42,634 nt of DNA from Thermoplasmata archaeon. Lineage in GTDB: Archaea; Thermoplasmatota; Thermoplasmata; Methanomassiliicoccales; Methanomethylophilaceae. The stretch covers positions 1 through 42,634 of the forward strand of contig SUSZ01000018.1 of the NCBI GenBank assembly GCA_015063165.1, written 5' to 3'. The notes beneath the pieces were generated by a model that was not told the DNA's origin, ran no database searches, and was given only the letters and a program-made list of their open reading frames with translations. The position numbers and the translations under genes were made by a program. Shown here in pieces: positions 17,631 to 34,621 of this stretch. Position 1 is the first letter of the stretch; each line of letters opens with the position of its first letter.

Positions 17631-17704
17631 GGGCCTGTAGCTCAGCTAGGTAGAGCATCTGACTTTTAATCAGGTGGTCAAGGGTTCGAATCCCTTCAGG
17701 CCCG
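17631..17704 (+). tRNA. tRNA-Lys (UUU)
   Basis: A full cloverleaf with acceptor GGGCCTG/CAGGCCC, anticodon stem TCTGA/TCAGG with loop CTTTTAA, and anticodon TTT at 17665-17667. CCA is encoded at 17705-17707. Acceptor and T arms are identical to those of tRNA-Lys(CUU) at 8038-8111, so most of the att core is present here too. Confidence 0.96.
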
Positions 17705-17817
17705 CCAATCAACTTCATGAGCGATCGACGGCGGATCAAGTATGAGGCAGGAATGACAGTCACATTTTTTAATGAAAACAAATTCCCGGCTAATCGGGCT
17801 GTTAAGGGGTGAAATTA

Positions 17818-18108
17818 GTGGCAACGGACTATACATTCAATGTTCTAAAGCATGATTTGGTACCCGAGCACAGGCTTCTTAGTTTGGACGAGGAGAAACG
17901 TGTGCTCGAGGAGAAAGGAATAACCAAAGACAAGCTTCCTAAGATAAGGAAGAACGATCCCGGCATCAAGGCCTTGGAGAACACCGCAGAGGCCAGGGCC
18001 ATCCTCGGCCCCTAGGACTCCATAGAGGAGGGCTGTGTGATCGAGGTAGTAAGGAAGAGCGAGACCGCCCACAGGTTCGTCGGGTACAGGCTCGTCACGA
18101 GGGGGTGA
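17818..18108 (+). CDS. rpoH: RNA polymerase subunit H with in-frame UAG
   Basis: The archaeal Rpb5-like subunit, 96 residues if UAG codon 66 is read through. The first half has [14 protein letters not shown] and [15 protein letters not shown]. The second half ([25 protein letters not shown]) is the most conserved part of the family and lies entirely after the UAG. Stopping at UAG would give a 65-residue piece without the assembly core. The TGA at 18106-18108 then lies 4 nt before the rpoB start, as expected in this operon. GTG 17818 is chosen because GGGGTGA precedes it by 5 nt; GTG 17809 lies inside that site. The 12 residues before the UAG ([12 protein letters not shown]) look like a lineage-specific insertion. 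Confidence 0.88.
18013..18015 (+). other. In-frame UAG, codon 66 of rpoH
   Basis: TAG lies between GGC-CCC (G-P) and GAC-TCC (D-S). The conserved C-terminal half of RpoH continues in the same frame for 30 codons to TGA. Confidence 0.85.
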
Positions 18109-18112
18109 ACCG

Positions 18113-21100
18113 TTGAGGGATCTCGTAAAGCTCTACTTCTCCGAGCACGACATCGTGTCTCACCACACCTCTTCATTCAACGACTTCTTAGCCACTCCAG
18201 ACAACCCCAACAGCAGAATGCAGAGAATCGTCGACGACATCAGAGTCCCCACCGACGACGCCGAGCGCGGAGTCATCAGGCTGGACCCCGAGCGCACCGC
18301 CTCGGATGTCGTCATCCGTCTCGGAAGGAAGAGGGACGCCAACGGCAACATCGACCCCCAGGCCAAGCCCACCATCCGCATAGACGAGCCTTGCGTCTCC
18401 GAGGCCAACGGTTACAGCCACGAGCTGACCCCCATGGAGGCCAGGCTCAGGAACCTCAACTACATGTCGCCGGTCTACGTCCGCTTCGAGATAGAGAAGG
18501 ACGGAGTAGAGGTGGAGATCCCCGAGGAGGCCAAATGGGTCCACGTTGGAGACCTCCCCATGATGGTCAAGTCCGCCGGATGCAACCTCAACAAAGCGGT
18601 CATCGAGAAGCGCAAGCAGCACAGCATCACCGAGGCCGAGTACAAGCAGGAGCTTGTGAAGAACATGGAGGACCCGGAGGAGCCCGGAGGATACTTCATA
18701 ATCGCAGGATCCGAGAGGGTCCTGATCACTCTGGAGGACCTCGCCCCCAACAGAGTCATGGTAGAGTACAACGAGAGGTACGGGACCGCCGTGGAGATGG
18801 CCAAGGTCTTCTCCCAGAAGGACGGATACCGCGCCCTCACCCTTGTCGAGAAGAAGAAGGACGGCACCCTCATGGTCTCCGTCCCCGTCACCTCGAGCTC
18901 CATTCCCCTCGTCGCCCTGATGAAGGCCCTCGGAATGGAGTCCGACCAGGAGATCTTCGAGGCCATCGTCTCCGATCCCCAGATGGAGAACATCATCTAC
19001 GCCAACATCGAGTCCTCGTTCGACAAGAAGAACTACGCCCCCAACGGATATCACACCAGGGACGACGCCATCCTGTTCCTCGAGAGGAACTTCGCCGCAG
19101 GACAGGCCAAGGAGTACAGGACCAAGAAGGTCGAGAACATCCTGGACCGCTCCCTCCTGCCCCATCTCGGAGACAGCATCGAGGACCGCAAGAAGAAAGC
19201 CATCTTCCTCGGACGTGTCGCGCGCTCCGTCCTCGAGCTCTCCCTCGGAAAGAGGAAGGAGGACGACAAGGACCATTACGCCAACAAGAGGCTCAAGCTC
19301 TCCGGGGACCTCATGGAGGATCTGTTCAGGACCAGCTTCAGCAGCCTCATGAAGGACCTGAAGTACCAGCTCGAGAGGAACTGGAACAGGAAGAAGAACG
19401 AGACCCCCACCATCGCCTCGTCCATCCGTCCCGACCTCCTCACCCACAAGCTCATCCACGCCCTCTCCACCGGAAACTGGGTCGGAGGGCGTGCTGGAGT
19501 CTCCCAGCTGCTCGACAGGACCTCCAACCTGTCCGCCATGTCCCACCTCAGGAGGATCACCTCCTCACTGACCAGGAGCCAGCCTCACTTCGAGGCACGT
19601 GACCTTCACCCCACCCAGTGGGGAAGGCTTTGCCCCTCCGAGACCCCTGAAGGACAGAACTGCGGTCTGGTGAAGAACGCGGCGCTCATCATCAACGTCT
19701 CCGAGGGCCTCCCCGAGAGCGACATCAACTGGATGCTCAGGGACTTCGAGGTCGAGGACGTCAAGTCCGGAGAGGGAACCCGTGTGTTCGTGAACGGGGA
19801 CCTATGCGGAATGCACTCCAACGCTAGGAAGCTGGTCGACGACATCAGGGACCGCAGGAGATGCGGACTGATCTCCGGCCAGGTCAACATCCGCTACGAC
19901 GAGGACATGAACGAGGTCATCATCAACTGCGACGAGGGACGTCTCAGAAGGCCTCTGCTCATCGTCAAGAACGGAAAGCTCAGCCTGACCAGGAAGCACA
20001 TAGAGAGGATACGCGAGAGCCTCGGAAGCGCCGGCAGCGACAGCAGCAAGATCAGGTGGGACGACCTGTTCCGCGAGGGTATCGTCGAGTGGATAGACGC
20101 AGAGGAGGAAGAGGACACCCTCATCCTCGTGAGCCCCTACGACGTTCCCCGCAGGTGCCCCAGCTGCGGACACGCCCTGTCCCCCGAGGACGCCGACTGG
20201 ATGAACCCCGGGAAGGGATCCGACGCCATCCTCAAGTGCAAATGGTGCGGCGGAGAGTTCGAGGTCCCCAGCAAGTTCGACGTCAAGTACACCCACATGG
20301 AGCTCGACCCCATGATCATCCTCGGAGTGGCATCCGGAATCGTTCCGTACCCCGAGCACAACTCCGCACCTCGTGTCACCATGGGAGCAGGAATGGGTAA
20401 GCAGGCTCTGGGAATACCCACCGCCAACTACAGGATCAGGCCCGACACCAGGGGCCACCTGATGCAGTACCCCCAGGTGCCCATGGTCCAGACCCAGTCC
20501 ATGAAGATCATGAAGTACGAGCACAGGCCGGCAGGACAGAACTTCTGCATCGCCGTCCTTTCCTACCACGGATACAACATCGAGGATGCGCTCGTCATGA
20601 ACAAGAGCTCCGTCCAGAGAGGGCTCGGAAGGTCCACCTTCATGAGGTCCTACAGGACCGAGGAGCGCCGCTACCCCGGCGGACAGGAGGACCACTTCGA
20701 GATCCCCGACGCCGAGATCATGGGCGCGCGCATGGATTCCGCTTACGCCTCTCTCGGAGAGGACGGTCTCATCTCGCCCGAGAGCGAGGTCACCGGATCC
20801 GACGTCCTCATCGGAAAGACCTCCCCGCCCAGGTTCCTCGAGGAGAACAACGACAACTACCTCTCCACCCTCAAGAGGAGGGAGACCTCCATCACCGTCA
20901 GGCCCGGAGAGAGGGGATACGTCGACTCCGTCATGATCACCGAGTCCGAGAACGGCTCCAGGCTCGTTCGCGTGAAGGTGAGGGACGCCAGGATCCCCGA
21001 GCTCGGCGACAAGTTCTGTTCCAGGTTCGGACAGAAGGGAGTCGTCGGAAGGCTGGTCGACCAGTGCGACATGCCCTTCACCGCCGACGGGGTCACCCCC

Positions 21101-21742
21101 GACCTCGTCGTCAACCCCCACGGTATCCCTTCCCGTATGACCATCGGGCACGTGCTCGAGATGATCGCAGGAAAGGTCGGAGCCATGGAGGGCCGCATCA
21201 TCGACGGTACCGCCTTCTCCGGAGAGAACGAGGTCTCCATCCGCGACGGACTCAGGAGGAACGGATTCAAGGACTCCGGAAAAGAGGTCATGTACGACGG
21301 AAGGACCGGACGCATGATCGAGGCGGACGTCTACACCGGCGTCATCTTCTACGAGAAGCTGCACCACATGGTCAGCGGAAAGATGCACGTCAGGTCCAGA
21401 GGACCCGTCCAGATCCTCACCAGGCAGCCTACGGAAGGACGTTCCAGGCAGGGAGGGCTCAGGTTCGGAGAGATGGAGCGTGACTGTCTGATCGGTCACG
21501 GAGCCGCCATGGTCATCAAGGACCGTCTGCTCGATGAGTCCGACGGAACCAAGCAGTGGATCTGCGGAAACCCCAAGTGCGGACACATCGCGATCATGGA
21601 CAAGAACGGGGCGCTGTACTGTCCTGTCTGCAAGAAGACCAACGTCTATCTCGTGCAGACCTCCTACGCTTTCAAACTGCTTATGGACGAGCTGCTGTCC
21701 CTCGGTGTAGCCATGAGGCTTCAGCTGGAGGATCTGAGATGA
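18113..21742 (+). CDS. rpoB: RNA polymerase subunit B, unsplit
   Basis: The second-largest RNA polymerase subunit, 1209 residues in one chain; many methanogens split it into B'' and B'. Landmarks are [19 protein letters not shown] near residue 198, the [17 protein letters not shown] region, a zinc-binding CPSCG...CKWCGG cluster near residue 683, the active-site loop [16 protein letters not shown] near residue 963, and a C-terminal zinc ribbon (CGNPKCGH and CPVCKK). TTG 18113 is preceded by GAGGGGGTGA at the end of rpoH. The stop overlaps rpoA1 as ATGA. Confidence 0.97.
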
Positions 21743-24684
21743 CCAACGAAATCACGAAGAAGATCGGCTCGATCAAGTTCTCCTGCGTCTCCCCCGACGA
21801 GATCAGGAAGATGTCCAAGATCGAGATCATCACGGCGGACACCTACGACGACGAGGGATACCCCATCTCCAGGGGTCTCATGGACCCCCACATGGGAGTC
21901 ATCGAGCCCGGGCTCCGCTGCAAGACCTGCGGATGCAAGGTCGACGAATGCCCCGGACACTTCGGACACATCGAGCTCGCGATGCCCGTCATCCATGTCG
22001 GATTCATCAAGGACATCAAGATGATGCTCGAGTCCACCTGCAGCAGCTGCGGCAGGCTCATGCTCAGCGCGGACCAGGTCAAGGTCCGCAGGGAGAGCAT
22101 GGAGAAGATGGAGGAGCTCGGAGGAGGAACCATCGACCTGAAGAACTTCTCCAAAGAGACCGCCAAAGACGCCTCCAAAGGGGTCGAGTGCCCTTACTGC
22201 GGAGCGAAACAGGTGAAGATCAAGCTCGACAAGCCTACCACCTTCAGGCTGGACAACGGCGACAAGACCGTCAACAAGGCCGCCGCCGGAGTCAACAAGG
22301 GATCCGCGAGCAGCAAGCTCACCCCCAAGGAAGTCCGCGAGAGGCTCGAGAAGATCTCCGACGAGGACCTCAGGACCCTGGGGATGGACCCCGAGACATG
22401 CAGGCCCGAGTGGATGGTGCTCACCGCCCTGGCGGTGCCCCCTGTGACCGTAAGGCCCTCCATCACCCTCGACTCCGGAGACAGATCCGAGGACGACCTG
22501 ACCCACAAGCTCGTCGATGTCCTCAGGATCAACCAGAGGCTCGGAGAGAACCGCGACGCGGGAGCCCCCCAGCTGATCGTCGAGGACCTCTGGGAGCTGC
22601 TCCAGTACCACGTCACCACCTACTTCGACAACCAGACCTCCGGAATCCCTCCGGCAAGGCACAGGTCCGGCCGCCCCCTGAAGACCCTCGCCCAGAGGCT
22701 CAAGGGAAAGGAGGGGCGTTTCAGGTCCAACCTGTCCGGTAAGCGTGTGAACTTCTCCGCGCGTACCGTCATCTCGCCCGACCCCCTCCTGTCGATCAAC
22801 GACGTCGGGGTGCCCATATTCGCGGCCAGGGAGCTCACCGTTCCCCTGCACGTCAACGCCAACAACATCGAAGACGTAAGGAAGATCGTCAGGCGCGGAC
22901 CTATGGCGGACAAGCTCACCTTCCCCTACAGGCCCGGAGCGAACTACGTCATCCGTGCGGACGGAAGGAGGATCAGGGTCACCGAGAGGAACGCATTCGA
23001 GGTCGCCGAGAACATCGACATCGACTACGTCGTCGAGAGGCAGCTGATGGAGGGCGACGTCGTCCTGTTCAACAGGCAGCCTTCGCTGCACAGGATGTCC
23101 ATGATGGCCCACCGCATCAAGATCATGGAAGGGAAGACCTTCAGGTTCAACCTCTGCGACTGTCCTCCTTACAACGCGGACTTCGACGGGGACGAGATGA
23201 ACCTCCACGTCCTCCAGTCCGACGAGGCTCGTGCGGAGGCCCGTATCCTCATGCAGGTCCAGGAGAACATCCTGTCCCCCAGGTACGGAGGGCCCATCAT
23301 CGGAGCGATCCACGACCACATCACCGGAGCGTACTACCTCACCCACGGCGACACCCACTTCGACAGGTTCCAGACCGCGAACATCCTGTTCAAGCTTCCT
23401 GTCAGGACCGCCGAGCAGAGGGAGAACGCCATCCCCGACGACAAGCAGCACTGCTACAAGGCCGATTCCAGGGACTGGGCCATCGACATGCCCGAGCCTT
23501 CAGGCAAGGACGACAAGGGAGAGCCCTACTGGACCGGAAAGCAGCTGTTTTCCATCATCCTCCCCGAGGACTTCAACGCCACTTTCAAGGCCAACATCTG
23601 CCACAACTGCCGCGACGGATGCCTGAAGGAGAACTGCAAGTACGACGCCTACGTCAAGATCCGCAACGGAAACCTCGAGTGCGGAACCATCGACGTCAGG
23701 GGAATCGGAAACAGCAAAGGAAAGATCCTCGACCGCATCGCCCGCGACTACGGCGCGTCCCGTGCGGCCAAGTTCATCAACCAGGTCACCAGGCTGGTCC
23801 TCGGAGCCCTCATGAACCACGGATTCAGCACCGGAATCGGCGACGAGGACATCCCCGAGGAGGCGGCCAACCAGATCGCCACCTACAGCCAGGAATGTAT
23901 CGACAAGGTGGCCAGGAACGTCGAGTCCTACCGCGACGGAACCCTCGAGGCCATGCCCGGACGCTCGCTCAGGGAGACCCTGGAGGTCAACGTCATGGGT
24001 ATCCTCGGAGAGGCCCGTGACCATGCGGGAGAGATCGCCGAGAAGCACCTCGGAATGGAGAATCCCGCGGTCATCATGGCGAAAGCCGGAGCCCGTGGAT
24101 CGATGCTCAATCTGTCTCAGATGGCGGGCTGCGTCGGTCAGCAGGCCGTTCGTGGAGAGAGGCTGTCCAGAGGATACCACGGAAGGACCCTTCCCCACTT
24201 CGAGAGGGACGACCTCGGCGCGTACGCCAGGGGATTCTGCTCCAACTCCTACAAGTCCGGGCTGTCCCCGACCGAGTTCTTCTTCCACGCGATGGGAGGA
24301 AGAGAGGGACTGGTCGATACCGCGGTCAGGACTTCCAGGTCCGGATACATGCAGAGGAGGCTCGTGTCTGCTCTGGAGGACCTCAAGCTCACCGCCGACG
24401 GGACCGTGAGGAACACCGTCGGGACCGTCATCCAGTTCAAGTACGGAGAGGACGGAATCGACCCCTCCAGGACCGTCGGAGGAAAGGCCATCGACATCGA
24501 CGACCTGTTCTACGAGGTGCTGCCCGAGGACGAGGCCGAGAAGCTCATCCACCCCGAGGTCAAGGACCGCGGAGACGACTACGGAACCCGCGAGAAGGAC
24601 GAGATGGAGTACATCGACGAGGACGGAGACGGCGAGGGCGAAGAAGACGGCGGAGACGACTACGGCGACGACGGAGGCGAATGA
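21739..24684 (+). CDS. rpoA1: RNA polymerase subunit A'
   Basis: The N-terminal part of the largest subunit, 981 residues. Near residue 60 it has the clamp zinc cluster [17 protein letters not shown]. The catalytic [10 protein letters not shown], whose three aspartates hold the active-site magnesium, lies near residue 479. A second Cys-rich segment ([13 protein letters not shown]) lies near residue 623. It is longer than usual for the family, mainly because of a very acidic low-complexity tail of about 25 residues ([18 protein letters not shown]). ATG 21739 overlaps the rpoB stop. The stop overlaps the region before rpoA2. Confidence 0.97.
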
Positions 24685-24686
24685 TC

Positions 24687-26183
24687 ATGGCAAAGAAAGA
24701 CACAGTGAAAGCGCTCGTGAAGAGGGGAGTCAGCGAAGAGGACGCGGCCCTTCTCGTTACCAAGTTCAACACCATGGGCGCCATAGGCGAGTCCAGCATC
24801 GATGTCATCGTCGAGCTCGGGATCCCCGAGGACCGCGCCGAGAGCATCATCAAGGCCATACACGCGAAGCCCTCCTCCTCTTCCTCGTCTTCTAGGGCCA
24901 AGAAGGTCGCCGTGCAGGAGCCAGAACCCGTCACGCTCTTCGAGACATACGCCAAGTTCAGCGAGTGCGACCCGGGCGAGAAGAAGCTCTAGGAGTTCGC
25001 TGAGGGTCTCGACCCCAGCCTCCCTGTGAAGATCATCCTCGACATCGCAAGCCGCGTCAGAAGGGTCTACAAGGACGAGGAGTACCTGGAGTACATCGAG
25101 AAGAGGGGGAAGGACTTCGTCAAGACCGCTCACAGGATGTACGTCTCGCACATGATGGACCAGAACGAGTCCGCAGGAGTCATGGCCGCGCACTCCCTCG
25201 GAGAGCCCGGTACCCAGATGAACATGCGTACCTTCCACTACGCGGGAGTCGCGAACGTCAACGTCACCCAGGGTCTGCCCAGGCTGATCGAGATCGTGGA
25301 TGCCAGGCGCATCCCCGCTACCCCTTCGATGGTCATACCCCTGGTCAACGAGATCGACGGCGGACCTGTCGACGAGGGAGTGGCCCGCCACATCGCCTCC
25401 GAGATCGAGATCACCACCCTGCTCGACGTCGCCGAAATACAGACCGATGTCACCAGCATGGAGCTCATCATCGTCCCCGACGCGCGCAAGATCTCCGAGA
25501 AGGGGATCACCTCCGAGGACATCAAGGAGAGGCTGAACAAGATAAAGGCCGTCCGCGGCAATGTGGAGATCGACCCTGTCAAGAAGATCAACATCATCGC
25601 AAGGGCGGACGAGCCCTCGTTCAAGAAGCTCCAGCTGATGTACGACACCGTCAAGGGAACCAAGATCAAGGGAATAGACGGCATCACCAGGGCCGTTCTT
25701 TCCAAGAAGAACGATGGCGGATGGAGCATCATCACCGAGGGAAGCAACCTCAAGGAGGTCCTAAAGGTGAGGGGAGTCGACTCCGAGCACGTCATGACCA
25801 ACAGCATCCTGGAGGTCGCGGACGTCCTGGGAATCGAGGCCGCCAGGAACGCCCTTATCCGCGAGGCGGAGGGAACCCTGGGAGAGGCAGGTCTGAACGT
25901 CGACATAAGGCACATCATGCTGGTCGCGGACCTGATGACCAACGACGGATACGTGAAAGCCATCGGAAGGCACGGTATCTCCGGAAAGAAGTCCTCCGTC
26001 CTCGCAAGGGCGGCGTTCGAGATCACCGCGGCCCACCTGCTGCATGCCGCGATGGTGGGAGAGGTCGATCACCTCGAAGGAGTCACCGAGAACATCATCG
26101 TCGGTCAGCCCGTCACCCTGGGAACCGGAGCGGTCAACCTCGAGTACAAGCCCAAGAAGAGGCGCACCGAGGAGGCCGAATGA
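24687..26183 (+). CDS. rpoA2: RNA polymerase subunit A'' with in-frame UAG
   Basis: The C-terminal part of the largest subunit, 498 residues with UAG at codon 102. Residues 1-65 are a helical extension (KALVKRGVSEEDAALLVTKF), followed by a serine run (PSSSSSSSR) and a linker. The family core starts just after the UAG (LPVKIILDIASRV). It continues with AHSLGEPGTQMNMRTFHYAG near residue 170, which holds the trigger-loop region, and ends with the jaw and GISGKKSSVLARAAFE. A restart after the UAG is unlikely: GTG 25026 lacks a Shine-Dalgarno and lies inside the conserved helix. ATG 24687 is preferred because GGAGG lies 9 nt upstream; ATG 24681 overlaps the rpoA1 stop. Confidence 0.9.
24990..24992 (+). 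other. In-frame UAG, codon 102 of rpoA2
   Basis: TAG lies between AAG-CTC (K-L) and GAG-TTC (E-F). The same frame continues into the conserved A'' core without another stop for 397 codons. Confidence 0.85.
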
Positions 26184-29095: not shown

Positions 29096-32000
29096 ATGCT
29101 CAAATTGGGAAAAGAGTCAGCCTCTGCCTCCGAAAAGGAGGTCAGCCGCGAAACAAGCGGCAATGGGTGGTTGAAAGACCACTGGTGCGCCCTTTCCGTT
29201 TGCGCGATCGTAGTCATAGCTCTGCTACTGAGGACGGTCTTCGCATACGGTATCTCCGCGGACAGCGATTTCGCTCTGTCCGGAGGTTCCGGCGCACAAT
29301 ACCACCTGCATGTGATTGAAAGCATATTGAACGGCACCTACGCCATCGGCGTCGATTCTGCTGTCAATTATCCTGTCGGAGGACTGAACGTCAATCCGCC
29401 CCTCCTCGATTTCATCGCTGCGGGCATTGCGTCGTTCACCACTCCCTCGGCGGCTCTGGGTGGACTCAACCCTGTGATCGGTGCCCTGACCTGCATACCC
29501 GTGTATCTTGTTGGTAAGGAGATGTTCAACAACAAGACCATCGGAGTGGTCTCGGCCCTGATCTTCGCGTTCCTGCCCCTCCCCATAGCCACGTCCGTGT
29601 TCTCCAACGGGAACGAGTACGCTCTCGCAGCGTTCTTCGTGGCGTTCATGTCCCTCTTCATGTTCAGGGCCGCAAAAGCCCTCGATGACGAGGACGGACG
29701 CAAGACCGTGATCCTCAACAGCGTCATCGCCGGTGTCTTCATGGGCCTCGCAGCCCTCACCTGGAACGGATTCGGCGTCCTTATCGCGGTAGCCGCAGCG
29801 GCTATGGTGGTCCACATCGCAGTCCGCCGCTTCGCAGAGAAGGACATGGTCCTGCCCTACATGGCGTACGCCATCATGATGGTCGTCGGTCTCGTCATGG
29901 CCGCCATCTACTACATCCCCGCTGGACTCTGGGACGCGGTTTTCTCCGGACCTTGCCTCCTCGTCGTATTAGCTTGCGCGTTCGGAGCGGCATTCCTTGC
30001 ACTCAAGAAAGTCTCTTGGGTCTATTCCATTCCCGCTCTCGTCATCGCGCTCATAGTCGTTCTCGCCGTGCTGTACTTCGCTGCAGGCGACCTCTTCGAC
30101 GATCTCATCGGAGGCAACTCTGTCTTCACCGCTCTCATGGATGCAGCGGTCACCACCCACGTGTCCATGTCCAACGTTTCCTCGTACTACGGATGGCTCA
30201 CCATGTGGCTCCCCATCTGCCTCGCCATCTACGAGACTTACAAGTTCATCAGGAGGGACCGCTCCAGCGCCAGGCTCTTCGTTACCGTCTGGCTCTACAT
30301 GATGTTCTTCGCGGTCTGGGCTTCCTACGGATCCGCCGCAGTCATCGGATGCGTCTTCGGAGTCGGTTCCGGAGCCGCCATCGTCAAGCTCATCCAGTAC
30401 GCCAACCTCGGCGAGTGGTATTCCAACATGAAGTCCGCGGGATTCCCCAAGGTCTTCAGAAAGATGATCTCGCCCATACCTTTCGCTACCGTCATCATCG
30501 TCGCATTCCTCGTCATCGTGCCCAACTTCGTGTTCGCCCTCGACGCCGGTGTGCCTACCAACGATTCTGACAACGTCCTGTACAACGGAAACACCCAGTA
30601 CACCATCAAGACCGGAGACAGCTACCCTGTCGAGGACGTCTGGTCCTCCTTCGCGGTGGACGAAAAGTCGGGTGCCCTCATCAGCCGCACCGACTACGCC
30701 TACGACGCCGCCAACTACGGCGGATTCAACTCTGTCGCCGACTCCATCGGATCCGGTTCGCCCGCCATAGCTCATACGTTGCTCGCAGACGGATCTTCGG
30801 GTGCCATCGCCTCCATGATCCTCCGCATCATGATGTCCCATGACATCAGCGACTTCGAGTCCGACTTCTCGAACTCCGCCGTGTTCGATACCATCTACAA
30901 CTACTCCAAGGACAAGAGCGCCCTCTACGATGAGCTCAGGAACAACTCCGAGTACTACGGAAAGCTCAAGTCCGAGGTCACCGAGGAGAATGCTATGTAC
31001 TTCGCCTGCACCAAGTGCATGACCGAGAACATGAGCACCGTCGAGCTCGCGTCCACTTACGACAAGGTCTGCGAGACTGCAGGTCAGAAGATATCCTATA
31101 TCCTTCTCGACCCCTCGATGATCCCCACCCAGTACGGCAGCGGAGACCAGTTCTCCACCACCGCCTACTATGCGGACTATGCGATCGACAGCTACGGAGC
31201 AGCCACTCAGTTCTTCAGCTACAACACCTATTACGGATACACCATCTACACCGACAAGATGTACGACACCTTCCTCTGGAAGGCCTTCGTCGGACCTTCC
31301 GCATCCCAGGCCGGCGCTTCCAGCTCGTACACGTATCTGTACGAACTCTCCACCAGCGACGGAACCTACGTTTCCAGCCCTGTCGGAATGGCGGGATTCA
31401 CCCTCGACAAGTGGATCGTGAGGTACACCTCCGACAAGACCCCTGACAACGACTCCAAGTGGGACTATATCGAATACAGCGACGCTCTCGCCAAGCAGAA
31501 GTCCGAGGGAGGAACCATCAACTACCTGGCATCCTACATGGTCTACGAGTACACCGGAATCGCCGGATCCACCTCCATCACGGGAAGGGTCGTCTCCGAG
31601 AACGGTTCCAGCCTCGACGGACTCACCGCTGAGCTCTACACCTACAACAGCAACGTCGGCAAGGACATCCTCGTCTCGTCCGATGTCGTCAAGGACGGAA
31701 AGTACAGCCTCGCTGTCCCCGCTGACACCGACTCGTACACCGTTCTCCTCAAGTCCGGCAATGTCGAGCTCGCCGCCTTCAAGGATTCCATCCCCGCAGT
31801 CTACACAATGCCTACCGTTGACGTCAGCGGACAGATCCTCGCCGGAGACAACGCGATCGCTGGAAACCCCCTGAGGCTCGTCCTCCAGAACAGCAACATC
31901 GACGCCGCCAAGTACATCGTCGACACCACCGACGGAAGCTTCACCGTCTCCGACATGATCGGAGGACAGTACACCGCGACCGTCTACGACAAGTCCGCTG

Positions 32001-34621
32001 CCGCTGTCGGAACCTCGACCTTCACCGTGGCCGGCGATGACGACAACAAGGTCACCGGACTGTCCGTCGCCGTCACCACCAAGACGATCACCGCCACCGT
32101 CAAGGATACCCGCGGTGTCGCCATCGACGGAGGACGCGTCGTCGCGACCAACACCTCCAACGGCATCCAGTACAGCGCCGCGATCGAGGACGGAACCGCA
32201 GTCGTCTACGTGCCTGCCGGAACCTACACCCTGCAGCTCACCGACGGATACGTCAGCGAGGTCAGCGCCACCTACACAATCTCCAGCAGCAACAGGACTG
32301 CGACCATCACCGCATACCCTGCGGACGAGGCCGCGATCGTCAGCGAAGTGCCGCTCACCTTCAGCGCAGGAAACTTCAGCACCGTCTCCTACGACGGAAA
32401 GGTCGCTCTGCCCAAGTCCGCCGGCACCGACAAGCTCCTGTACACCGTCTACGGAGTGAACGGCGGAAAGGTCGTCCTCGGAACCTACGACGGAACTCTG
32501 ACCACTGGCGAGTATACCGCTTACAAGATCAGCGGAACTCTCAAGAACGATGGCACCGCGACCTCCGGAACCCTCTACTTCGTCAACAGCGAGAAGCAGA
32601 CCGTCAAGGTCATCGCAGACAGCGAGGGCGCGTTCAGCGTCTACCTGCCCGGAGGAACCTACACCGTCTTCGCCAACGACGGTAACTCCATGATAGCGAT
32701 CACTTCTGTAACCGTGTCCTCCGACACCGAGATGGGCGACATCAGCCTGGTCGACGGAAGGAGGGTCACAGCCTACATCAGGTACGCCAGTGGAACCAGC
32801 TCCGGAAACCTCGGACTGGGATACGTCACCGCCAAGGCCGAGTTCACCTATAAGGATGTCAAGTACGTCATGTACGGAATGACCAACACTTCCGGACAGT
32901 GGCAGGTCTACATCCCTGACGACGTCGACTGCACGATCACCTTCAACGAGGGAACCCTCCAGAACGACATGTTCGCCGGAACCAACACGACCACCTCTGT
33001 CGCCGCGGGAACCGCGAACACCACCGTGTACGTCACTTTCAGCCAGTACAAGGAGACCTCCACCCCTGTCAACTACGTCAAGCAGGTCGCGATCATTCCC
33101 GACTACTCGATGACCCTGACTCCCTACAGCAGCGGAGACGACGTCACCGTTACTGCAGGAGCCAGCTCCAACATCAACCCTGGACAGTACACCGTCAAGC
33201 TCACCGAGGCCGGAAAGTACACCGACTCCACCGTCTACGTCTATCCTGGACAGGCGGAGTTCGTCGGACTCGAGGTCATCGATGCCCAAGCAGTCACCAT
33301 AACCAAGGGCGACTCCGACATCATCACCATCGAGACCGATGACGCGGACGCCTCTTACTTCAACAACGGCGACACCTACTACTTCAAGGACGGATACAAG
33401 TACTACGTATCCTCCGCAGCCGGAGCAGCGTCCACTTCCGATGTGAGGTACGCTCTCGTAGACCTTGTGTCCGGAACTGCACCCAGCACCCTTAACATGA
33501 CCGCCAACGTCGCTCCCATGACCGTCACAGGATACATCGGAGTCCCCGCTAACGGACATGTGACCGTCACCAGCGGAGATGTCGGAATCTACGCCGACGT
33601 CACCTCCGGACAGTTCACCGTCAGGATGCCTTACACCATGACCTCCGCCACCTTCGCCGCAGAAGCCAAATACACCTCTGGAGACACCGAGTACAACTAC
33701 TCCGCCAGCAGGAATGTCACCGGCCTCGTCGACGGATCTGTCGTCAACATCCCCGTCACCGGCGTGGGAACCGAGGTCGTGGACGAGGATGCGAAATTCA
33801 CCGCATCCATCGATTCCGCTTCCTTCTCCAACGGAGAGGGAACCGTCGTCGTCACCATCGACAACAAGTCTTCCAAGACCGCGACCTATGTCCTGTCCGC
33901 TGGAACCGCCTGGTCTCTCACCAAGGCGGTCAGCACCACCATAGCCGCGGAATCCTCCAAGACCGTCACCGTCACCGGACTGTACGACGACCAGATCTAC
34001 GCTGTCGGATCCAAGGGAATGGACGTCATCGTCACCAACATCTCCGACGCCAGCTCCAAGACCCTCAAGATTACTCAGAACTCCGCTGCCTCTACCGGTT
34101 CCAAGGGTGTCACCATCCTGACCTCCGGCGAGAGGTCCGGCGAGCACGAGGGAAGCCTTGACAAGGTCTCCGCTGTGGAGTACATGTACGCCGTGACCAT
34201 GATCAACAACGACAACTACGCCAAGGAAGTCACGTTCACTCTGCCTTCCGCGAGCGGATGGTCCGTGCTCGTCACCGACAAGGACGGACACACTATCCGC
34301 GAGAGTGGAGAGTCCTTCACTCTGTACGGACTGGAGACCACTGTGTTCTATGTCAAGTACATGCCCAACGGCGACGCGACCGGAACCACCGTGCCTTCCA
34401 GCACCGTCACCGTCAACTGCGATGGAACCAGCAAGACCCTGAACATGACGCCTTCGACCGTCGATGTCACCCTCAAGTCCATGGACGCGAGCGGAGACAA
34501 CATCGTCAACGAGAGGTCCGGAGTGCCCATCGGTATCTGGTTCATGCTGGCTGTCGGAATACTGCTCCTCATAGCTGTGTTCTGGCTCGGAAGCAAGAGG
34601 GGGGTGTTCTCACGCAGATAA
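29096..34621 (+). CDS. Giant STT3/AglB-like membrane protein with beta-repeat ectodomain
   Basis: An 1841-residue protein. Residues 25-485 form about a dozen membrane helices with the layout of archaeal oligosaccharyltransferase AglB (QYHLHVIESILNG, NYPVGGLNVNPPLLDF, LTWNGFGVL). Residues 490-790 fit the soluble catalytic part. About 1000 residues of beta-sandwich repeats follow, of the carboxypeptidase-regulatory kind (ITGRVVSENGSSLDG, VDVSGQILAGDNAIAG, VVYVPAGTYTL). A final helix (GIWFMLAVGILLLIAVFWLG) and a basic end close the protein. The catalytic motifs look degenerate: the usual D-x-Y-Y near the first loop reads SGAQYH, and the WWDYG position reads RTDYA near residue 530. It may be a divergent transferase or an envelope protein built on that scaffold. 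A signal-peptide protein follows after 11 nt. Confidence 0.75.
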   Translation: MLKLGKESASASEKEVSRETSGNGWLKDHWCALSVCAIVVIALLLRTVFAYGISADSDFALSGGSGAQYHLHVIESILNGTYAIGVDSAVNYPVGGLNVNPPLLDFIAAGIASFTTPSAALGGLNPVIGALTCIPVYLVGKEMFNNKTIGVVSALIFAFLPLPIATSVFSNGNEYALAAFFVAFMSLFMFRAAKALDDEDGRKTVILNSVIAGVFMGLAALTWNGFGVLIAVAAAAMVVHIAVRRFAEKDMVLPYMAYAIMMVVGLVMAAIYYIPAGLWDAVFSGPCLLVVLACAFGAAFLALKKVSWVYSIPALVIALIVVLAVLYFAAGDLFDDLIGGNSVFTALMDAAVTTHVSMSNVSSYYGWLTMWLPICLAIYETYKFIRRDRSSARLFVTVWLYMMFFAVWASYGSAAVIGCVFGVGSGAAIVKLIQYANLGEWYSNMKSAGFPKVFRKMISPIPFATVIIVAFLVIVPNFVFALDAGVPTNDSDNVLYNGNTQYTIKTGDSYPVEDVWSSFAVDEKSGALISRTDYAYDAANYGGFNSVADSIGSGSPAIAHTLLADGSSGAIASMILRIMMSHDISDFESDFSNSAVFDTIYNYSKDKSALYDELRNNSEYYGKLKSEVTEENAMYFACTKCMTENMSTVELASTYDKVCETAGQKISYILLDPSMIPTQYGSGDQFSTTAYYADYAIDSYGAATQFFSYNTYYGYTIYTDKMYDTFLWKAFVGPSASQAGASSSYTYLYELSTSDGTYVSSPVGMAGFTLDKWIVRYTSDKTPDNDSKWDYIEYSDALAKQKSEGGTINYLASYMVYEYTGIAGSTSITGRVVSENGSSLDGLTAELYTYNSNVGKDILVSSDVVKDGKYSLAVPADTDSYTVLLKSGNVELAAFKDSIPAVYTMPTVDVSGQILAGDNAIAGNPLRLVLQNSNIDAAKYIVDTTDGSFTVSDMIGGQYTATVYDKSAAAVGTSTFTVAGDDDNKVTGLSVAVTTKTITATVKDTRGVAIDGGRVVATNTSNGIQYSAAIEDGTAVVYVPAGTYTLQLTDGYVSEVSATYTISSSNRTATITAYPADEAAIVSEVPLTFSAGNFSTVSYDGKVALPKSAGTDKLLYTVYGVNGGKVVLGTYDGTLTTGEYTAYKISGTLKNDGTATSGTLYFVNSEKQTVKVIADSEGAFSVYLPGGTYTVFANDGNSMIAITSVTVSSDTEMGDISLVDGRRVTAYIRYASGTSSGNLGLGYVTAKAEFTYKDVKYVMYGMTNTSGQWQVYIPDDVDCTITFNEGTLQNDMFAGTNTTTSVAAGTANTTVYVTFSQYKETSTPVNYVKQVAIIPDYSMTLTPYSSGDDVTVTAGASSNINPGQYTVKLTEAGKYTDSTVYVYPGQAEFVGLEVIDAQAVTITKGDSDIITIETDDADASYFNNGDTYYFKDGYKYYVSSAAGAASTSDVRYALVDLVSGTAPSTLNMTANVAPMTVTGYIGVPANGHVTVTSGDVGIYADVTSGQFTVRMPYTMTSATFAAEAKYTSGDTEYNYSASRNVTGLVDGSVVNIPVTGVGTEVVDEDAKFTASIDSASFSNGEGTVVVTIDNKSSKTATYVLSAGTAWSLTKAVSTTIAAESSKTVTVTGLYDDQIYAVGSKGMDVIVTNISDASSKTLKITQNSAASTGSKGVTILTSGERSGEHEGSLDKVSAVEYMYAVTMINNDNYAKEVTFTLPSASGWSVLVTDKDGHTIRESGESFTLYGLETTVFYVKYMPNGDATGTTVPSSTVTVNCDGTSKTLNMTPSTVDVTLKSMDASGDNIVNERSGVPIGIWFMLAVGILLLIAVFWLGSKRGVFSRR

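Follow-up and report, generated by a model that had tools for sequence, protein, structure and literature searches.

Pyrrolysine is usually viewed as a losable add-on for methylamine metabolism. In the methylamine methyltransferases MtmB, MtbB and MttB, as in the two RNA polymerase genes described here, rpoH and rpoA'', a conserved reading frame continues beyond an in-frame UAG and the same pyl machinery is available to decode it. Heinemann (2009) is said to have placed pyrrolysine in tRNAHis guanylyltransferase and to have ascribed it to 'appearance by neutral evolution', and Kivenson et al. (Science, 2025) reportedly described a 'Pyl code' in archaea that read all TAG codons as pyrrolysine, with genome-wide sense UAG and proteomic proof. 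According to Borrel et al. 2014 (PMC4153887), 'Ca. Methanomethylophilus alvus' has 16 predicted pyrrolysine proteins beyond the methyltransferases and 1.6% TAG stops, and these authors proposed that pyrrolysine could become essential for growth. It is already known that pyrrolysine decoding occurs in the Methanomassiliicoccales and has spread there into ordinary genes. Here we describe in-frame UAG codons in two RNA polymerase subunit genes of one clade in this order, which, judging from the genomes, are very probably translated as pyrrolysine, so that the RNA polymerase of the clade would need this amino acid. A literature search made without the 2025 'Pyl code' paper found no published report of pyrrolysine in an RNA polymerase subunit.

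In the window (the whole stretch of 42,634 nucleotides analysed), the genes lie in the order tRNA-Lys, rpoH, rpoB, rpoA', rpoA'' (Table 1). A first-pass annotation, made from the sequence alone, had claimed that rpoH is interrupted by an in-frame UAG and that its frame runs on to a TGA 4 nt ahead of rpoB. Both claims hold: the TAG is in frame with either of the possible GTG starts, and the frame beyond it ends in TGA at 18106–18108, followed by the TTG start of rpoB at 18113. The identity of the gene is supported by a match above the cut-off to PF01191, the Rpb5 C-terminal domain, by its Rpb5 C-terminal fold and by the rpoH–rpoB gene order. The PF01191 match spans the TAG (17836–18096; 79.3 bits, cut-off 23.5). 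The subunit H profile NF007129 scored 79.5 bits, just below its cut-off of 83, a shortfall probably due to a clade-specific insertion ahead of the TAG, whose exact edge is uncertain by about one codon. The same annotation had placed the conserved C-terminal half of the protein wholly after the UAG, which is correct for the last 30 residues but not for the domain as a whole, about two-thirds of which precedes the TAG and about one-third follows it. An AlphaFold model of RpoH, made from 21 sequences with the TAG entered as lysine, had a mean pLDDT of 69.5 (moderate confidence), and its best PDB matches in Foldseek were archaeal RNA polymerase subunit H (9bct_H and 8cro_H). In this model the insertion adds a short helix (residues 57–63; pLDDT about 70), and residue 66 lies in the loop after it.

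Table 1. RNA polymerase genes, in-frame UAG codons and neighbouring features in the window
Feature	Position	Strand	Remarks
tRNA-Lys(ttt)	17631–17707	+	Upstream of rpoH; context only
rpoH (Rpo5, RNA polymerase subunit H)	17818–18108	+	96 residues with UAG read through; GTG start, alternative GTG at 17809
Clade-specific 9-codon insertion, AEARAILGP	17986–18012	+	Directly 5' of the rpoH TAG; from alignments and model
In-frame TAG, RpoH residue 66 (putative pyrrolysine)	18013–18015	+	Present in 6/6 clade rpoH genes found
rpoB	18113–21742	+	4 nt downstream of rpoH; without TAG; NF006335, 1580.7 bits
rpoA' (subunit A')	21556–24684	+	Without internal TAG; TGA end; assigned by position between rpoB and rpoA''
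rpoA'' (subunit A'')	24681–26183	+	500 residues with UAG read through; TIGR02389, 430.5 bits, cut-off 420.65
In-frame TAG, RpoA'' residue 104 (EKKL-O-EFAEG)	24990–24992	+	Conserved in 7 clade genomes

The TAG in rpoA'' was absent from the first-pass annotation and surfaced in a codon-usage gene scan. The A'' profile match begins at residue 115 and extends to the end of the protein, and the C-terminal core of A'' therefore lies after the TAG. Ahead of this core, RpoA'' is extended at its N terminus by about 100 residues (24681–24989), a feature common to the genus. Standard annotation would cut rpoH at its UAG and split the N-terminal part of rpoA'' from the remainder. Among the called genes of the window, rpoH and rpoA'' are the only ones with an internal TAG, and the codon-usage scan called no gene terminated by TAG. 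The true start of rpoA' is probably further in than the first start codon of its ORF, since that codon overlaps rpoB. Elsewhere in the window, an ORF of 1,841 residues (29096–34621) lies opposite an antisense ORF (29969–34291; 1,440 aa) that is probably a G+C effect.

Consistent with decoding of UAG as pyrrolysine, a search for the pyl genes, which the first-pass annotation had suggested, located pylT, pylS, pylB, pylC and pylD in a row on one contig of the genome (C34), adjoined by a methyltransferase gene that itself contains an in-frame TAG. PylS, PylB, PylC and PylD matched TIGR02367, TIGR03910, TIGR03909 and TIGR03911 above the cut-offs. The 273-aa PylS, with PylS_Cterm above the cut-off, lacks the N-terminal domain, and the profile for that domain, TIGR03912, was absent throughout the genus in the profile search; this absence is expected because a shortened pyrrolysine synthetase has been described in the Methanomassiliicoccales (PMC3941956). 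The tRNA-Pyl(cta) at L077 10546–10616 folds with a 6-bp anticodon stem and a 3-nt variable region. Its call rests on ARAGORN because an Rfam search of the pyl locus gave no match. None of 44 tRNA matches in the genome has CUA, and with the pyl locus and intron-aware scans included, tRNA-Pyl was the sole CUA tRNA seen, on a list that is not fully complete, as tRNA-Tyr is missing from the scan. An intron-bearing tRNA called Ser(cga) by ARAGORN has the anticodon CAT by eye and was set aside as not CUA.

We also measured how UAG is used elsewhere in this genome, in a 363-kb sample with heuristic gene calls based on a codon-usage score; a simple G-periodicity score was dropped because it picked antisense ORFs. 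The 228 ORF ends comprised 189 TGA, 24 TAA and 15 TAG. Coding sequence follows the TAG in 12 of these 15 ORFs, and most of the others look like antisense artefacts, leaving at most a few TAG gene ends in the sample, so that UAG rarely if ever ends genes here. The genes read through in this way include methyltransferases, a nitroreductase, a MarR-like protein, a kinase-like protein and one gene with two TAGs; the UAG-containing methyltransferase genes, present in several copies, serve as positive controls. A 997-codon gene without a Pfam match (L187:4981–7974, minus strand, contig C17) has two in-frame TAGs, and several paralogues of a Sel1-like family have one, both in this genome (L193:14205–16223, minus strand, contig C24) and in its closest relative, G020. 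Near the pyl cluster, a nitroreductase gene (L077:11449–11961, minus strand, C34) has an in-frame TAG in this genome, and its orthologues in G020, G019 and G011 do not. In samples of three relatives outside the clade (G004, G006 and G007), TAG stops were also rare and methyltransferases were prominent among the genes with internal TAGs. Inside the clade, the G019 sample contained few internal TAGs elsewhere, but this genome has kept both RNA polymerase TAGs.

The release factor aRF1 retains the NIKS motif in this genome, as it does in G020, G011 and G019, so UAG may still cause some termination. Two members of the TAG clade, G018 (L159) and G012 (L171), have NIRS in place of the otherwise conserved NIKS, a change possibly linked to reduced UAG recognition. 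We rejected a release-factor change as the cause of UAG reassignment, as NIRS occurs in only two clade members and four others, including this genome, have NIKS. No PYLIS-like structure was found: the 100 nt downstream of each TAG folded no better than shuffled sequences (z = 0.38 for rpoH and 0.52 for rpoA''). Such an element accompanies only some pyrrolysine-encoding genes. PYLIS is reported not to be essential (PMC3639795).

To place the two codons in the order, we searched 147 Methanomassiliicoccales genomes from 30 genera with PF01191 and found rpoH in 131. An internal stop occurred in 6 of these 131, in each case a single TAG and always in the genus of the window, a distribution far from what chance would give. 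Alignments showed that the 9-codon insertion ahead of the TAG is common to all six, whereas the sister sequences read ESI-HGPIDEG. At the aligned position of rpoA'', a TAG was present in seven genomes of the genus, namely the six rpoH carriers and G011, in whose assembly no rpoH was found; it was lacking from all remaining genus members with an rpoA'' match, and sister genomes have ordinary residues in this column. The RpoA'' proteins of the six to seven clade species are 72–86% identical to that of the window. In a tree of aRF1 and the rpoA'' core, the seven TAG genomes formed one clade with a support of 1.00, within which an old split separates G019 and G011 from the rest. Thus, both codons were most simply gained once, before this split. 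Named public assemblies also contain four of the six TAG-bearing rpoH genes; their sources are sheep rumen, sheep omasum, water buffalo rumen and the isolate Tb.RUG.20. The first-pass annotation had proposed looking for the codon in related genomes, where it is kept in all six clade rpoH genes, and had reasoned that its reading would fail if resequencing showed no TAG; instead, the codon was recovered from independent assemblies of different animals.

The frame after the rpoH TAG is under purifying selection. Among the six species, pN downstream of the TAG was 0–0.10 compared with a pS of 0.24–0.65, which shows that this part of the gene is translated and has a function. On both sides of the codon taken together, pS was large (0.24–0.77) and non-synonymous differences were small. 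Constraint on the TAG itself is less certain. It is one of the 19 of 91 codons identical in all six genes, and it is invariant between neighbours that vary (P/S/G/K/S/G at codon −1 and D/D/E/D/T/E at codon +1); 69 of the 91 positions keep their amino acid in all six, however, so that one invariant codon proves little alone. Of three genes used for comparison, the nitroreductase and the MarR-like protein have orthologues without TAG in G020, the closest relative (84–85% identity), and the Sel1-like gene has an orthologue there with TAG. The RNA polymerase TAGs thus look unusually stable while ordinary TAGs come and go, and this comparison, limited to three genes, favours their retention by selection. 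One explanation, which we consider unlikely, is that RpoH 66 and RpoA'' 104 retain pyrrolysine for a role in RNA polymerase, as a contact or as a reactive imine coupling transcription to the methylamine or pyrrolysine state, rather than as a tolerated replacement. We know of no pyrrolysine function outside methyl transfer, and a selected role in RNA polymerase would, if true, be the first.

Other readings of the two codons have to be weighed against translation as pyrrolysine. The chance that a sequencing or assembly error lies behind the rpoH TAG is negligible. Although all TAG genomes are probably metagenome assemblies, as the named ones are, six divergent species from different studies and hosts share this TAG and the insertion, and one error could not arise repeatedly between different flanking codons. 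It is also extremely unlikely that the UAG is a real stop, with the cell using a 65-residue RpoH or the gene decaying. The intact aRF1 with NIKS in this genome is compatible with termination, but a stop here would delete the C-terminal third of the Rpb5 domain, ahead of a downstream frame that is under purifying selection in six species. When RNA polymerase is reconstituted without subunit H, open-complex formation and initial transcription are both impaired (PMC3906176), and there is no other copy to supply the subunit: as the first-pass annotation had asked, we looked for a second rpoH, and PF01191 had a single match in the whole genome (2.28 Mb, 67 contigs, 99.9% complete).

If the codons are read through, an ordinary amino acid might be inserted by a near-cognate or other suppressor tRNA. 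The ordinary residues of the sisters at the aligned RpoA'' column suggest that such a residue is tolerated there, and the missed tRNA-Tyr leaves a gap in the tRNA list. Nevertheless, with a dedicated tRNA-Pyl(CUA), PylS and PylBCD present and no other CUA tRNA in the matches and intron-aware scans, we regard insertion of an ordinary amino acid as very improbable. Only slightly more credible is a regulated switch, in which the balance between full-length and truncated forms of RpoH and RpoA'' would track pyrrolysine supply and tune transcription to methylamine availability. In its favour, both codons are kept clade-wide, and the TAGs of two other genes are not shared even with the closest relative. 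Against it, many unrelated genes have a decoded UAG and hardly any gene ends with one, which fits constitutive decoding; no structural element was seen at either site; and a shortage of RNA polymerase would affect every gene simultaneously.

Translation of both UAGs as pyrrolysine would proceed as follows. The rpoH UAG would act as a sense codon decoded by tRNA-Pyl through its CUA anticodon, once PylS has charged this tRNA with the pyrrolysine that PylBCD supply. The ribosome would then produce RpoH at its full length of 96 residues and place pyrrolysine at residue 66, in the loop beside the clade-specific insertion, and the same decoding would occur at RpoA'' residue 104. Both codons would have become fixed a single time, in the ancestor of a clade within a genus of Methanomethylophilaceae in which UAG hardly ends genes, and from then on the RNA polymerase of the clade would have required pyrrolysine. 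From the genomic evidence we infer the identity of the inserted amino acid, efficient read-through and the dependence of transcription on pyrrolysine. If both subunits are read in this way, it follows that no normal RNA polymerase could form without pyrrolysine, and a tie between transcription and pyrrolysine supply would be a reasonable consequence. Should both subunits need pyrrolysine throughout the clade, the 22nd amino acid would be essential for life in these archaea, UAG would be locked in as a sense codon and the pyl genes would no longer be losable. The RNA polymerase UAGs therefore offer a clear, testable case of an expanded genetic code turning irreversible.

These sites differ from the known ones in several respects. 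In MtmB, MtbB and MttB, pyrrolysine is catalytic and tied to methylamine use, whereas the RNA polymerase sites are structural or peripheral and belong to a housekeeping enzyme that is always needed. The tRNAHis guanylyltransferase case resembles them in that the UAG reportedly lies in a housekeeping gene rather than in a methyltransferase gene; set beside it, the RNA polymerase UAGs are retained across six to seven species. The 'Pyl code' archaea reportedly share with the clade of the window the use of UAG as a sense codon genome-wide. 'Ca. Methanomethylophilus alvus' is closer still in belonging to the same order, with low use of UAG as a stop and ordinary genes that gained in-frame UAG (PMC4153887). 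Its list of additional pyrrolysine proteins, drawn from one genome, names no RNA polymerase subunit in the passages considered (PMC4153887), whereas the clade of the window has UAG in two such subunits clade-wide, and rpoH outside the clade is without UAG. The RNA polymerase UAGs fit the idea of an essential pyrrolysine proposed by Borrel et al. (PMC4153887) and would be a strong instance of it.
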